This document shows positions 21,781-26,584 of a DNA stretch of 26,965 bases, piece after piece. The stretch covers positions 1 to 26,965 of the IMG/VR virus record IMGVR_UViG_3300017749_000107, one strand, 5' to 3'. The position numbers and the translations under genes are program-made. How positions within the stretch are numbered: position 1 is the first letter of the stretch; each line of letters opens with the position of its first letter. The DNA comes from a virus. Under the pieces are notes generated by a model, which saw only the letters and a list, made by a program, of their open reading frames with translations, had not been told where the DNA came from and ran no database searches.

Positions 21781-22503
21781 ATGAGTAAAATTGCACTGAC
21801 ACCGAATGCAAGTGGAAATGGAACAGTAACTATTACTGCTCCAAACACTAATACTGATCGCACTTTGACTATTCCAGATGTTACTGGAAATGTTGTGACA
21901 ACAGGTGACAGTGGAACTGTTGTTGCTGGAATGATTGGTTCTGGTGCTGTAGAGTATGCTAAGTTAGACCAGACACTTGGTACTTGGAATAAATTAACTG
22001 ATGTGAGTATTGCTGCTAATACAGCACCACAAATGATGTTTCACAGTATTCTCAATGGGCCTTACCAATACTACAAGGTTATTGGAAAGATAGGTGGTTC
22101 ACAGACAACTGGTAATGCAAATATGCAACTTAGATGGGTTACTGGAACTGGAACAGACATAAGTGGTTCAACATATCATAGTGGAAACAGTGGTTACTTG
22201 TCTGACGGCAACTTCAATAATGGTTCAGGCCTGAACCATAACGCTGCTTATATTCTTGTTCATACTTCAACTGGCACATCTAATTTTGTAGATATGACGT
22301 TAATACCCTCACTCGCATATGGATTTGGACATATTCACACACATGATCAAAATACACATATCGGTGTTACTACTTTTGGTTTTAAGTATAACGCTGGGTT
22401 TTCAGATATTTCTGGAATTAAAGTTTATCCTAGCGGCGGTAATATGACAGAAGTTGATTTAACAGTTTTTGGTATGAAAACGTCTGGAAGTTTAGGGGGA
22501 TAA
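21781..22503 (+). CDS. Tail fibre/adhesin-like protein with distinct tip
   Basis: The 240-residue protein begins MSKIALTPNASGNGTVTITA and NTNTDRTLTIPDVTGNVVTT, a short beta module seen at the start of many phage fibres. A single AxxxAKL-type repeat follows (SGAVEYAKLDQTLGTWNKL, residues 58-76). Residues 80-240 form a beta-rich terminal domain with PYQYYKVIGKIGGSQTTGN, MQLRWVTGTGTD and a Tyr/His/Asn-rich stretch (GFGHIHTHDQNTHIG near residue 180). This tip type is not seen in the other fibres of the window. An aromatic- and His-rich surface would suit carbohydrate or metal contact, but that is speculative. It has its own late promoter. The gene for a probable assembly chaperone follows after four bases. 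Confidence 0.72.
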   Translation: MSKIALTPNASGNGTVTITAPNTNTDRTLTIPDVTGNVVTTGDSGTVVAGMIGSGAVEYAKLDQTLGTWNKLTDVSIAANTAPQMMFHSILNGPYQYYKVIGKIGGSQTTGNANMQLRWVTGTGTDISGSTYHSGNSGYLSDGNFNNGSGLNHNAAYILVHTSTGTSNFVDMTLIPSLAYGFGHIHTHDQNTHIGVTTFGFKYNAGFSDISGIKVYPSGGNMTEVDLTVFGMKTSGSLGG

Positions 22504-22507
22504 TATA

Positions 22508-22858
22508 ATGGCATATTCAGTAAATAGTGAAACAAAAGTTGCAACCCTTGACGGAGTTGAATACAAACCGTCTGCTGTGCATGACGGTAAAGAACTAACA
22601 TACGTTGCATTGACAGAAGATGAGTGTAAGTTCTTCAAAGATTTACACGCAACTATTCCTGCTCAACAATTAGAACATCTTAGAAAAATGAGAAATCAAA
22701 AACTCGCAGAATGTGATTGGACACAATCAGCAGATAGTTCTCTAACTGATTCAAAAAAGACAGCGTGGGTAACATATAGAACTGCCCTTAAAGACATAAC
22801 TAAAACATATCAATCCACAGAAGATGATGGATTTAGCTGGCCGGAGAAACCAGAATGA
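22508..22858 (+). CDS. Probable phage tail assembly chaperone
   Basis: The 116-residue protein carries the motif LRKMRNQKLAECDWTQSADS (residues 58-77) followed by KKTAWVTYRTALKDI (83-97). The R-N-x-x-L-x-x-x-D-W-T-Q...W-x-x-Y-R-x-x-L-x-D-I pattern is characteristic of the Phage_tail_APC-type assembly chaperones found beside tail fibre genes of many tailed phages. Members are thought to assist fibre or tail folding and need not be in the virion. The N-terminal 45 residues (VNSETKVATLDGVEYKPSAV) are a variable partner-binding type region. It follows a fibre gene by four bases and overlaps the next fibre start by four bases (ATGA at 22855-22858). Production is therefore coupled to its neighbours. 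Confidence 0.75.
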   Translation: MAYSVNSETKVATLDGVEYKPSAVHDGKELTYVALTEDECKFFKDLHATIPAQQLEHLRKMRNQKLAECDWTQSADSSLTDSKKTAWVTYRTALKDITKTYQSTEDDGFSWPEKPE

Positions 22859-23589: not shown

Positions 23590-24750
23590 ATGCCATTTAT
23601 CGGAAAACAACCACAGGCTGGTGCATATTCAAAGTTAGACGCAATAACAACTTCTGCTACTGCTACTTATAACTTGACACTAGATAGTGGTGCATACTCT
23701 CCTCAGAGTGCTAACCACTTGTTGGTTTCACTTAATGGTGTTATTCAAGCTCCACAAGATTCATTCACGGTCAGTGGTTCACAGATTATATTTGACTCTG
23801 CATTGACAAGTTCTGATGTTATTGACTTTATTATTGCACTTGGTGATACACTGGATATTGGTGTACCTAGTGCTGGTTCTGTTAATACAAGTCAGTTGGC
23901 AAACGATGCTGTGACTGCTGCAAAGATTGCTGCAGGAGTTGTTAATACAACAGAACTTGCAAGTAATGCTGTAACAACTGCAAAGATTGCTGATGATGCC
24001 ATTACTGGTGCAAAAATTGAAAACAATCCAACTATTGCTGGAAACCTTGCTGTTACTGGCACCAGTGCATTAACTGGTAATGTAGGTATTGGAACAGCTG
24101 CTGGTGGTAATCCTTTAGCAGTACAAGCAGATAGCGGTGCTGGTGGTATTGATATACTTGGTCGTTCATCTGATAACACTGCTACTATGGTGATTGGTAA
24201 AAGTGCTGATGGAAATACAATGTACAATACCATTACTAGTTATTCAAACAGAATGAGAATTCAGTCTGGTTTTTCTGGTGACAGCAATTCAATAGAATTT
24301 TATACGAATGACGGTTTGAGTATGAACATTGACTCTGCTGGTAGAGTTACCGCTGCAGGCACGCCATATTTTAGAGTTCAAAAAACTAATGGTAGTTTGA
24401 CAAGTGCTCAGATTATTATATGGAATACTGTCATTCAAAATGTTGGTAGTCATTATAACAGTTCAAATGGAAGATTTACTGCTCCAGTTAATGGAGTATA
24501 TCAATTTAACGTATTGGGGTCTATCACTTCTAGTCCAACAGACACTTCATTACACAGAGTAAGAATTAACGGAACTTTTCAATCAGACTTATTTCCAATT
24601 GCTACGAATGATGCAAGTCATATTTCTTACTGTCTTGCCTTTGCGCTCAAGTTGAGTGCAAATGATTATGTAGACATAGAATCTGGTAGTTCAACATGGT
24701 ATGGAACTGGAAACTATCATAATGGTTATACTGGTTATCTAGTAGGATAA
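23590..24750 (+). CDS. Tail fibre with TTAKIA repeats and C1q-like tip
   Basis: The 386-residue protein begins MPFIGKQPQAGAYSKLDAIT, followed by a divergent GNGS-type module (residues 20-90; LLVSLNGVIQAPQDSFTVSG). Residues 93-150 carry three TTAKIA-type repeats (NDAVTAAKIAAG, SNAVTTAKIADD, DAITGAKIENN). A shaft with TGNVGIGTAAGGNPLAVQAD follows. The C-terminal 128 residues look like a C1q/TNF-like jelly-roll: YFRVQKTNGSL, then NVGSHYNSSNGRFTAPVNGV, YQFNV, HRVRINGTFQS and LKLSANDYVDIESG. C1q-like tips form trimers and bind protein or glycan ligands. The protein is the best receptor-binding candidate here together with 25580-26314. It is followed by a small protein whose paralogue also follows the other C1q-type fibre. 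Confidence 0.82.
   Translation: MPFIGKQPQAGAYSKLDAITTSATATYNLTLDSGAYSPQSANHLLVSLNGVIQAPQDSFTVSGSQIIFDSALTSSDVIDFIIALGDTLDIGVPSAGSVNTSQLANDAVTAAKIAAGVVNTTELASNAVTTAKIADDAITGAKIENNPTIAGNLAVTGTSALTGNVGIGTAAGGNPLAVQADSGAGGIDILGRSSDNTATMVIGKSADGNTMYNTITSYSNRMRIQSGFSGDSNSIEFYTNDGLSMNIDSAGRVTAAGTPYFRVQKTNGSLTSAQIIIWNTVIQNVGSHYNSSNGRFTAPVNGVYQFNVLGSITSSPTDTSLHRVRINGTFQSDLFPIATNDASHISYCLAFALKLSANDYVDIESGSSTWYGTGNYHNGYTGYLVG
23957..23991 (+). repeat. 35-base shared fibre repeat (TTAKIA module), copy C
   Basis: Perfect 35-base match to 6679-6713. Encodes ASNAVTTAKIA within the repeat region of the C1q-type fibre. Confidence 0.85.
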
Positions 24751-24753
24751 ATA
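24746..24753 (+). promoter_or_regulatory. Late promoter-like element (GATAAATA) overlapping stop codon
   Basis: GATAAATA contains the TAA (24748-24750) of the C1q-type fibre. It lies 19 bases before ATG 24773, with TAGGAG between. Confidence 0.58.
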
Positions 24754-24772
24754 GTTCAAATAGGAGAATATA

Positions 24773-25039
24773 ATGGCGGAAATTAAAGTAACAGTATCAG
24801 ATACACAAGTAAAGTGTCTTGAGTATGCTGCTTATTCGGTACAAGATTGGTGTGATAATGTAATTCACGAACGTGCTCGTATTGCACAAGAAGAAATTAT
24901 TGCTAAACTGGTTACACATTGCAATGCAAATGATATTGCTCTTGCTACTGGTGTTGAAGCACAAATCACTCAAGCATATACCTTAGAGGTAGTTGATACC
25001 GCAAAGAAAATATCTGATGCTGCTGTTATGACAGAATAA
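24773..25039 (+). CDS. Small protein following a C1q-type fibre, copy 1
   Basis: This 88-residue protein has no recognised domain. It begins MAEIKVTVSDTQVKCLEYAA, with WCDNVIHERARIAQEEIIAK (residues 26-45) as an amphipathic helix and VTHCNAND after it. Its paralogue at 26345-26584 is identical in the first 32 residues and in 67 of the first 79. The two Cys near residues 15 and 27 and the one near 50 are conserved in both. Similar short proteins occur in marine T4-like phages without an assigned role. Both copies lie directly after a fibre with a C1q-like end and share the leader AGGAGAATATAATGGC. That pairing suggests a fibre partner or assembly helper; the evidence is positional only. Confidence 0.72.
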   Translation: MAEIKVTVSDTQVKCLEYAAYSVQDWCDNVIHERARIAQEEIIAKLVTHCNANDIALATGVEAQITQAYTLEVVDTAKKISDAAVMTE

Positions 25040-25042
25040 ATA
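25035..25042 (+). promoter_or_regulatory. Late promoter-like element (AATAAATA) overlapping stop codon
   Basis: AATAAATA contains the TAA (25037-25039) of the small gene upstream. The 15 bases from 25036 (ATAAATAACTTTATA) also occur in front of gp8 at 7532-7546, which supports a shared promoter. ATG 25091 is 48 bases downstream, a longer leader than elsewhere. Confidence 0.6.
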
Positions 25043-25050
25043 ACTTTATA

Positions 25051-25070
25051 CCTCTAGTGGATGCTAGGGG
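25051..25070 (+). promoter_or_regulatory. Possible 5'-leader hairpin
   Basis: CCTCTAG (25051-25057) can pair with CTAGGGG (25064-25070), giving seven base pairs including one G-U, around a six-base loop. It follows the late promoter core by eight bases and so would lie near the mRNA 5' end. No U-run follows, so it is not a typical terminator. Confidence 0.4.
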
Positions 25071-25090
25071 CGGACAAAAGGAGAAAAATA

Positions 25091-25354
25091 ATGGCGATTA
25101 CAAAACGTATAGAAGAAGATAAAATTGAAGTAGTAGGCGAGTTCAAGCATATTCAAGTGAGAACCGCTACTGTTATTGAAGAAGATGGTGTGGAACTTTC
25201 AAGAAGTTTCCATAGACACACTGTTGCACCAGACTCAGATTCATCTGGAGAAAGTGCAGACGTAAAAGCAATGGTTGCACAGTTTCATACTGATGCAGTC
25301 AAAACTGCCTATGCTGCTCATCTAGCAGAACAGGTGCAAGAAGAAGAAGAATAA
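25091..25354 (+). CDS. Small acidic protein of unknown function
   Basis: The frame opens at ATG 25061, but ATG 25091 is preferred. It has AAAAGGAG at an ideal distance, and the upstream ten codons overlap the leader hairpin. The 87-residue product begins MAITKRIEEDKIEVVGEFKH. It has a beta-rich first half (IQVRTATVIEEDGVELSRSF), then HRHTVAPDSDSSGESADV and a helical second half (VKAMVAQFHTDAVKTAYAAH) ending in an EEEE tail. The RSFHRHTVAPD stretch resembles short proteins found in fibre loci of marine phages, but I cannot name a family. It lies inside the fibre locus, ahead of a short beta protein and a C1q-type fibre. A helper or accessory role is guesswork. Confidence 0.66.
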   Translation: MAITKRIEEDKIEVVGEFKHIQVRTATVIEEDGVELSRSFHRHTVAPDSDSSGESADVKAMVAQFHTDAVKTAYAAHLAEQVQEEEE

Positions 25355-25376
25355 AAAAACTTAAAGGGGATAAGTG

Positions 25377-25580
25377 ATGCCACTATCTAAAGTACAATCA
25401 CAAGTTATAGAGAACATTGACGGAGGCGGTTCTGATGCTGTTTTCTTTACCAATGATCAGACTATGACAGTAGACTATACTCTTGCTGCTGATAAGAACG
25501 CTGTAACTGCTGGGCCTATCACAGTGAATAGTGGTGTCACCCTCACCATTTCCTCTGGTGCAAGATTGGTGGTAGTATAA
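25377..25580 (+). CDS. Very short fibre-end-like beta protein
   Basis: The 67-residue product begins MPLSKVQSQVIENIDGGGSD. A GTG three bases earlier is also in frame, but ATG 25377 sits six bases after AAAGGGGA and is preferred. The second half (YTLAADKNAVTAGPITVNSG, then VTLTISSGARLVVV) is a motif that in marine phages often ends larger fibre proteins. Here it stands almost alone after a short N-terminal linker. It may be a minimal capping or spacer protein, or the remnant of a larger fibre. Its stop overlaps the next start (TAATG at 25580), so it is translationally coupled to the C1q-type fibre downstream. Confidence 0.68.
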   Translation: MPLSKVQSQVIENIDGGGSDAVFFTNDQTMTVDYTLAADKNAVTAGPITVNSGVTLTISSGARLVVV

Positions 25581-26314
25581 TGGCAATTACTTTAGACGGA
25601 ACAAATGGTGTAACCACACCAGCATCCACAAATACTGGAAATGAAAGTATAACTGGTAATATTACAACAAATGGACAAGTTGGAGTTAATACTTCTGGGA
25701 ATACTGTAACTGGAAGATTCGGAACTGGTATTACAGTTCGTAGGGCAGTTCCAGAAGTTCACCTAAAAAGAGATGACAATCAAGGTGAAGGCGGTATTCT
25801 TCTTGATAATGCTTCATCTACTCAGCGTTTGTTTGTAGGCACATACAACGGAAACCAAGAAACACATATTGGAACTAACGGAACACAAAGATTAGTTATT
25901 AATAATTCTGGTCATATAACTATGCCAAACCAACCAGCGTTTATGGCGTTCAAAGTTGGTAATCAATCTGTCGGCGCTTCAACAACACAAGTAACTGGTT
26001 GGAATAACAACTTAGATGTTGGTAGTAATTGGGATAATACTAACAATAGATATACAGTTCCAACTGCTGGAATTTATCTTGCTGGTGGTTTTTATCAAGC
26101 TAGTGGTACAACTGGATTGCATTTTGGAATTTTGAAGAATGGTGCTGCTTATGGAAACGACAGTTTTTTAGATATAGTTGATGCTAGTGCTAACGGATAT
26201 TCTGTACCATTTTCAATGGCTGCAAACGATTATTTTACATGGATAGCATACTGTTCTACAACTAAGACCATCAATGCAAACAGAACTAAAATCTGGGTAA
26301 TCAAAGTATCCTAG
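25580..26314 (+). CDS. Short tail fibre with C1q-like tip
   Basis: The 244-residue protein starts MAITLDGTNGVTTPASTNTG, a very common marine phage fibre N-terminus. Residues 20-115 form a beta shaft (NGQVGVNTSGNTVTGRFGTG, LKRDDNQGEGGILLDNAS, THIGTNGTQRLVINNSGHIT). Residues 116-244 look C1q-like: AFMAFKVGNQSVGAS, then WDNTNNRYTVPTAGIYLAGG, LHFGILKNGAAYGND and FSMAANDYFTWIAY. This matches the layout of the tip of 23590-24750. It lacks the TTAKIA and GNGS modules. It ends with tandem stops (TAG TAA). The gene is coupled to the short protein upstream and followed by the second copy of the small fibre-associated protein. The probable role is a receptor-binding trimer. Confidence 0.78.
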   Translation: MAITLDGTNGVTTPASTNTGNESITGNITTNGQVGVNTSGNTVTGRFGTGITVRRAVPEVHLKRDDNQGEGGILLDNASSTQRLFVGTYNGNQETHIGTNGTQRLVINNSGHITMPNQPAFMAFKVGNQSVGASTTQVTGWNNNLDVGSNWDNTNNRYTVPTAGIYLAGGFYQASGTTGLHFGILKNGAAYGNDSFLDIVDASANGYSVPFSMAANDYFTWIAYCSTTKTINANRTKIWVIKVS

Positions 26315-26320
26315 TAAATA
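26313..26320 (+). promoter_or_regulatory. Weak late promoter-like element (AGTAAATA)
   Basis: AGTAAATA overlaps the TAG stop (26312-26314) and lies 24 bases before ATG 26345, the same placement as the stronger elements. The same octamer also occurs inside genes (for example 22519-22526), so sequence alone is weak support. Confidence 0.35.
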
Positions 26321-26344
26321 GATTTAATTAAACAGGAGAATATA

Positions 26345-26584
26345 ATGGCAGAGATTAAGGTGACAGTATCAGATACACAGGTAAAGTGTCTTGAGTATGC
26401 TGCTTATTCAGTTCAAGATTGGTGTGATAATGTAATTCATAATCGTGCTCGTCAAGCACAAGAAGAGATTATCGCAAAACTAGTCGCACATTGCAATGCA
26501 AATGGTATCGCAATCGCAACTGGTGCTGATGCACAAGTTACTCAAGCATACACTCTGAAATTAGTTGATACTGCAACAGAGTAA
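26345..26584 (+). CDS. Small protein following a C1q-type fibre, copy 2
   Basis: This 79-residue paralogue of 24773-25039 shares its first 32 residues exactly and differs at 12 of 79 aligned positions, all after residue 32. It is nine residues shorter at the C-terminus (TLKLVDTATE versus a longer KKISDAAVMTE-type end). In the first 32 codons I count eight synonymous and no amino-acid changes between copies, so the N-terminal half is under strong purifying selection. It has AGGAG upstream and the same leader as copy 1. A C1q-type fibre precedes it and a new fibre gene follows after 11 bases. Function is unknown; a dedicated fibre helper or joint protein is inferred from position. Confidence 0.72.
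   Translation: MAEIKVTVSDTQVKCLEYAAYSVQDWCDNVIHNRARQAQEEIIAKLVAHCNANGIAIATGADAQVTQAYTLKLVDTATE

Follow-up and report, generated by a model that had tools for sequence, protein, structure and literature searches.

The window, by which is meant the whole stretch of 26,965 bases that was analysed, comes from the record of a T4-like myovirus, in which genes for the baseplate wedge, on the left, are followed by an extended run of fibre genes (Table 1). Within this array, two tail fibre genes (F1 and F2) are each followed directly by a gene for a small putative helper protein (S1 and S2, respectively). The array also includes a chaperone of the Phage_tail_APC family behind another fibre, and a small protein of the phrog_6228 family that comes after S1, not after a fibre tip of the DYEEGTW type described below. 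The short reading frame that ends where F2 begins resembles the middle of fibre proteins and may be what is left of a fibre after loss or exchange of its tip.

Table 1. Features of the fibre array in the window, and of a second small-protein family in other loci
Feature	Length (residues)	Coordinates	Strand	Remarks
Phage_tail_APC-family chaperone	116	22508..22858	+	Pfam PF16778, 2.3e-15; behind the fibre at 21781-22503; context
F1, tail fibre	386	23590..24750	+	C1q domain at residues 263-385 (about 24376-24744)
S1, small helper protein (putative)	88	24773..25039	+	22 nt after F1
phrog_6228-family small protein	97	25061..25354	+	phrog_6228, 2.4e-23; context, outside the C1q pair
Reading frame	68	25374-25580		phrog_36881, 5e-12; like the central part of fibre proteins, tip absent
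F2, tail fibre	244	25580..26314	+	C1q-type tip from about residue 110 (25907-26311)
S2, small helper protein (putative)	79	26345..26584	+	30 nt after F2
S94 (other loci)		L004:1607-1888 and L254-L333		Behind a distinct, aspartate-rich C1q tip subclass

Both fibres end in a C-terminal jelly-roll of the C1q/TNF type, at the positions where a sequence-only reading of the window had placed C1q-like domains. The domain of F1 is recognized by Pfam (C1q, 4.9e-11); that of F2 lies below the reach of the Pfam C1q model in a profile search and was identified by fold, its AlphaFold model matching solved C1q/TNF domains including that of Cbln1 (E about 1e-7 to 1e-6). F1 and F2 have phrog_15750 in common (2.2e-6 for F2), and the N-terminus of F1 corresponds to phrog_18673 (1.4e-33). 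Their tips are only 29% identical to each other and have few close relatives.

The small proteins behind the two fibres are paralogs (87% identity over 77 aligned residues, E 4e-50), encoded at the coordinates given in that reading. Its count of differences was confirmed codon by codon: residues 1-32 are the same in S1 and S2 despite 8 synonymous changes, and 12 replacements fall within residues 33-79. Its deduction of a constant N-terminal half and a fibre-specific C-terminal half did not survive comparison with 96 homologs, among which mean pairwise identity is 0.70 for residues 1-32 and 0.745 for residues 33-77, and only the tail past residue 77 varies. Thus, the halves are equally conserved, and the argument drawn from the two copies is removed. 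Two copies of S occur in one record only in the window and in two contigs 99.7-99.9% identical to it. F2 and S2 share one reading frame; when the tip of F2, the intergenic codons and S2 were modelled as a single read-through chain (34 paired rows), the C1q fold was confirmed and the S part was less confident than S modelled alone, a result that bears on fold and not on any interface.

Homologs of S are plentiful in viral contigs (86 by single-sequence search, 420 by profile search), but among isolate phages they were found only in Synechococcus phage S-SRM01 and Limnohabitans phage DC33, both only about 40-50% identical to marine S, and the single homolog in cellular genomes lies on a contig of a metagenome-assembled genome. 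Phage DC33 (L096, PQ492659.1) is filed under Inoviridae, but its circular genome of 39 kb, in which fibre-like genes are very long, looks like that of a tailed phage. Searches with S1, S2 and family members returned no meaningful Pfam or PHROG match, and the weak PHROG names obtained (neck, connector) were judged to be due to chance. A profile search against PDB sequences hit a designed repeat protein (1.8e-4), taken as spurious because the match is built from repeated segments, each insignificant alone. S is a previously unnamed family of helical proteins in marine phages, about 85 residues long and acidic (median pI 4.7). The model of S1 has four helices and no strand (pLDDT 94), and a strand may form upon oligomerization; a fold search of PDB and BFVD gave no match with E<=0.001.

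The extended N-terminal stretch of S, followed by two helices, brings to mind a small DNA-binding regulator of the ribbon-helix-helix type residing within the fibre array, and weak structural matches of S include NikR (Z 2.9, 42 residues, 2.6 A) and AtaR2 (Z 3.0, 44 residues, 3.4 A). However, Z scores of about 3 may reflect a common arrangement only, no Pfam model of such a type matches any of the 96 members, the low pI speaks against it, and a regulator would leave the match between S and tip subclass, described below, unexplained. This role is considered very improbable.

The genes directly upstream of S are recognized by the Pfam C1q model in 48 of 66 cases, compared with 29 of the 145 other ORFs of the same loci. 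A fibre directly followed by S has a C1q tip in about 90% of distinct cases, versus 20% of other ORFs. With tips clustered at 60% identity and C1q called by a custom-built profile, S stands behind 48 C1q tips and 6 others, whereas phrog_6228 stands behind 1 C1q tip and 38 others (Fisher p about 1e-18); APC proteins stand behind C1q and other tips alike. The C1q fibres that precede S carry 33 different N-termini, and in 6 of 66 tip clusters S persists behind a tip that is not C1q. In both DC33 and S-SRM01, a C1q fibre (6e-12 and 1.8e-5, respectively) lies directly before S.

The bias of looking only where S occurs was removed by sampling loci through the small terminase gene of a related group of phages; here, a C1q fibre was counted if it had at least 180 residues in the island after the terminase gene or at least 250 residues anywhere. 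Some of these phages have, behind a C1q fibre, an unassigned family of about 94 residues (S94) in place of S. Either S or S94 is present in 13 of the 15 loci with a C1q fibre and in none of the 65 others; gene by gene, S or S94 comes directly after 7 of 13 C1q fibres with 220 residues or more, and after 2 of the 273 remaining genes. Behind short C1q fibres (median 168 residues), an APC gene is found instead. The expected adjacency of the small protein to C1q fibres is thus found far above controls, in the S-independent sample and in two distant isolates as well.

S94 may be a distant relative of S (hhalign E 0.0019-0.003, probability 10-14); in a comparison of S with 19 other small families, S94 scored best (E 0.003, next 0.094). 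A search with S94 yielded 80 loci, with a C1q-tipped upstream gene in 59 of 60 distinct contexts. The tips behind which S94 stands have a signature of their own (FgTE.fDvNsDF ... TSNR.Y ... DMDANDTA), and in a tree of 157 C1q tips, S-followed and S94-followed tips are split by 1 change, compared with 39.8 expected with shuffled labels. When tips were tabulated against next genes with subclass profiles built from helper-labelled tips, which makes the table, but not the tree, partly circular, S94 stood behind 61 of the 67 S94-type tips with a known next gene and S behind none of them, and S94 never followed an S-type tip (222 with a known next gene). Four S94-followed tips sit in phages otherwise of the S kind and have S94-type tips of other phages as their nearest relatives, so lineage alone does not explain the match of helper to subclass.

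Directly behind the S-type tips with a known next gene, S is found in only 69 of 222 cases, so it may act in trans or be dispensable for many of them. Furthermore, in 65 of 87 comparisons, S proteins that share 90% identity or more serve tips that share less than 40%; a near-constant S with strongly divergent tips indicates a partner of a class of tips and not of a particular fibre. The notion of an undescribed fibre-cognate helper family thus stands at the level of tip subclass, where the tree separates S from S94, and fails at the level of the single fibre; fibre-by-fibre matching is not supported, and S tracks lineage more than tip.

Tips and helpers are evidently exchanged together. Two loci (L188 and L189) share 99.2% identity across 5,942 bases, as far as the middle of a fibre gene; beyond the break, one has a C1q tip with S94 and the other a C1q tip with S, and similarity returns near the start of the next fibre. 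Across all loci, the S or S94 helper is kept in 69 of 70 pairs in which one C1q tip replaces another, and in 11 of 33 pairs in which the swap is to another kind of tip; these pairs overlap, and restriction to disjoint pairs gives a median p of 0.0008 (0.09 in the worst draw). The small protein phrog_6228 behaves comparably with tips of the DYEEGTW...FTITY kind: it lies directly behind them in 42 of 49 distinct contexts, and it is gone in 65 of 74 pairs in which the DYEEGTW tip is replaced by C1q. By these sequence comparisons, phrog_6228 and the DYEEGTW tip are a second putative tip-helper pair. Two other unassigned genes of 78-82 residues (L011:740-985 and L018:2021-2254), each flanked by S and by a fibre whose tip is not C1q, may encode helpers of further tip types.

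The position of S between two fibres allows the reading that it serves the next fibre downstream, or that it is a late gene bound to lineage whose synteny behind C1q fibres is inherited. Covariation is consistent with this, S varying more with lineage than with the tip, and more with the N-terminus of the downstream fibre and with the anchor than with the tip. One branch of S, marked by the motif PQDWADN (L074, L097-L155), lies behind an APC or phrog_6228 gene instead of directly behind a C1q fibre; the fibre that comes after it has either a C1q tip or a DYEEGTW tip with phrog_6228, in alternation. However, the genes downstream of S are varied (C1q in 15 of 67) whereas those upstream are C1q, a swap involves tip and helper jointly, the match of S and S94 to tip subclass crosses lineages, and the gene order is retained in DC33 and S-SRM01. 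Either form of this explanation is improbable.

The gene order, the association with C1q tips, the match to tip subclass, the exchange as a block and the helical model point to assembly chaperones or transient caps for the neighbouring C1q fibre tips, matched to tip subclass, as the probable function of the family of S1 and S2. From these observations we infer physical binding of S to the tip, a chaperone role in preference to a structural one, and release of S. S would bind the C-terminal C1q domain of the newly made fibre and hold it in solution and in register until the chains have assembled into a trimer, after which S would depart or remain bound. What is recognized would be the C1q subclass and not the individual fibre, with a near-constant S for diverse tips and S94 for the second subclass, and tip and helper would pass between phages as one cassette.

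A permanent part of the virion, such as an adaptor, joint or accessory adhesin on the C1q tip, would be expected to show this gene order, this match to tips and this exchange as a block just as a protein needed for assembly only would, and the fibre chaperone of phage Mu remains on the mature fibre (PMC9608196, PMC10579305). A small, acidic and near-constant protein beside highly variable tips is easier to reconcile with a generic folding helper than with an adhesin, and the many C1q tips that have no S gene directly behind them also speak against a permanent virion component; neither point is decisive, and a structural role, while unlikely, keeps more weight than the other alternatives.

The chaperone-like reading of S has precedents that differ from it in sequence and build. 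Similar to Tfa and Phage_tail_APC (PF16778) proteins, Mu Tfa and T4 gp38, S is encoded directly downstream of a fibre and exchanged with its tip. Because this likeness is one of gene position and exchange only, S is classed as chaperone-like, outside the Tfa and APC families: neither PF16778 nor any other fibre-assembly Pfam model matches any of 96 members at E<=1, S aligns with the APC family of these loci only at E 0.49 (hhalign), and the APC family, unlike S, is indifferent to the kind of tip. The Tfa-type protein gp25 of cyanophage Pam3 is a chaperone that binds the TNF-like tip of fibre gp24 and has an alpha-helical domain that mediates trimerization or assembly (PDB 7YPX; PMC9608196). 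Thus a separate phage-encoded chaperone exists for a TNF-like (C1q-related) fibre, the role proposed for S; however, gp25 has at least 162 residues and grips the fibre by an N-terminal beta-sandwich, whereas S has about 85, is all-helical and lacks a beta-sandwich, and no sequence link between the two was found. Alteromonas phages V22 (gp26-gp27) and A5 (gp8-gp9) have fibre-plus-chaperone modules, the chaperones being described as 'transient caps' (PMC10579305). These marine modules, like that of S, are common to distantly related phages; the paper mentions neither C1q nor TNF.

C1q-like proteins in metaviromic islands of marine phages have been described as hypervariable putative receptor-binding proteins in a paper that describes no helper and in which the words 'chaperone' and 'downstream' are absent (PMC3909814). 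Variable C1q host-recognition genes are thus already known, as are fibre chaperones, one of them serving a TNF-like fibre; the literature searched, which covered few subscription journals, yielded no account of S or S94. Marine phages may possess a code of helpers, with S and S94 for two C1q subclasses and phrog_6228 for the DYEEGTW tip, in which tip and helper together are the unit of host-range exchange; the case for and against this broader scheme is evenly balanced. C1q-type tips are among the common receptor-binding domains in marine phages and vary greatly, and the papers searched yielded no helper for them. Should S and S94 be chaperones of these tips, they would explain how C1q tips fold and why certain tips travel with a small gene, would aid the prediction of unnamed C1q-tipped fibres, and would provide a co-expression partner for the laboratory production of C1q tips.
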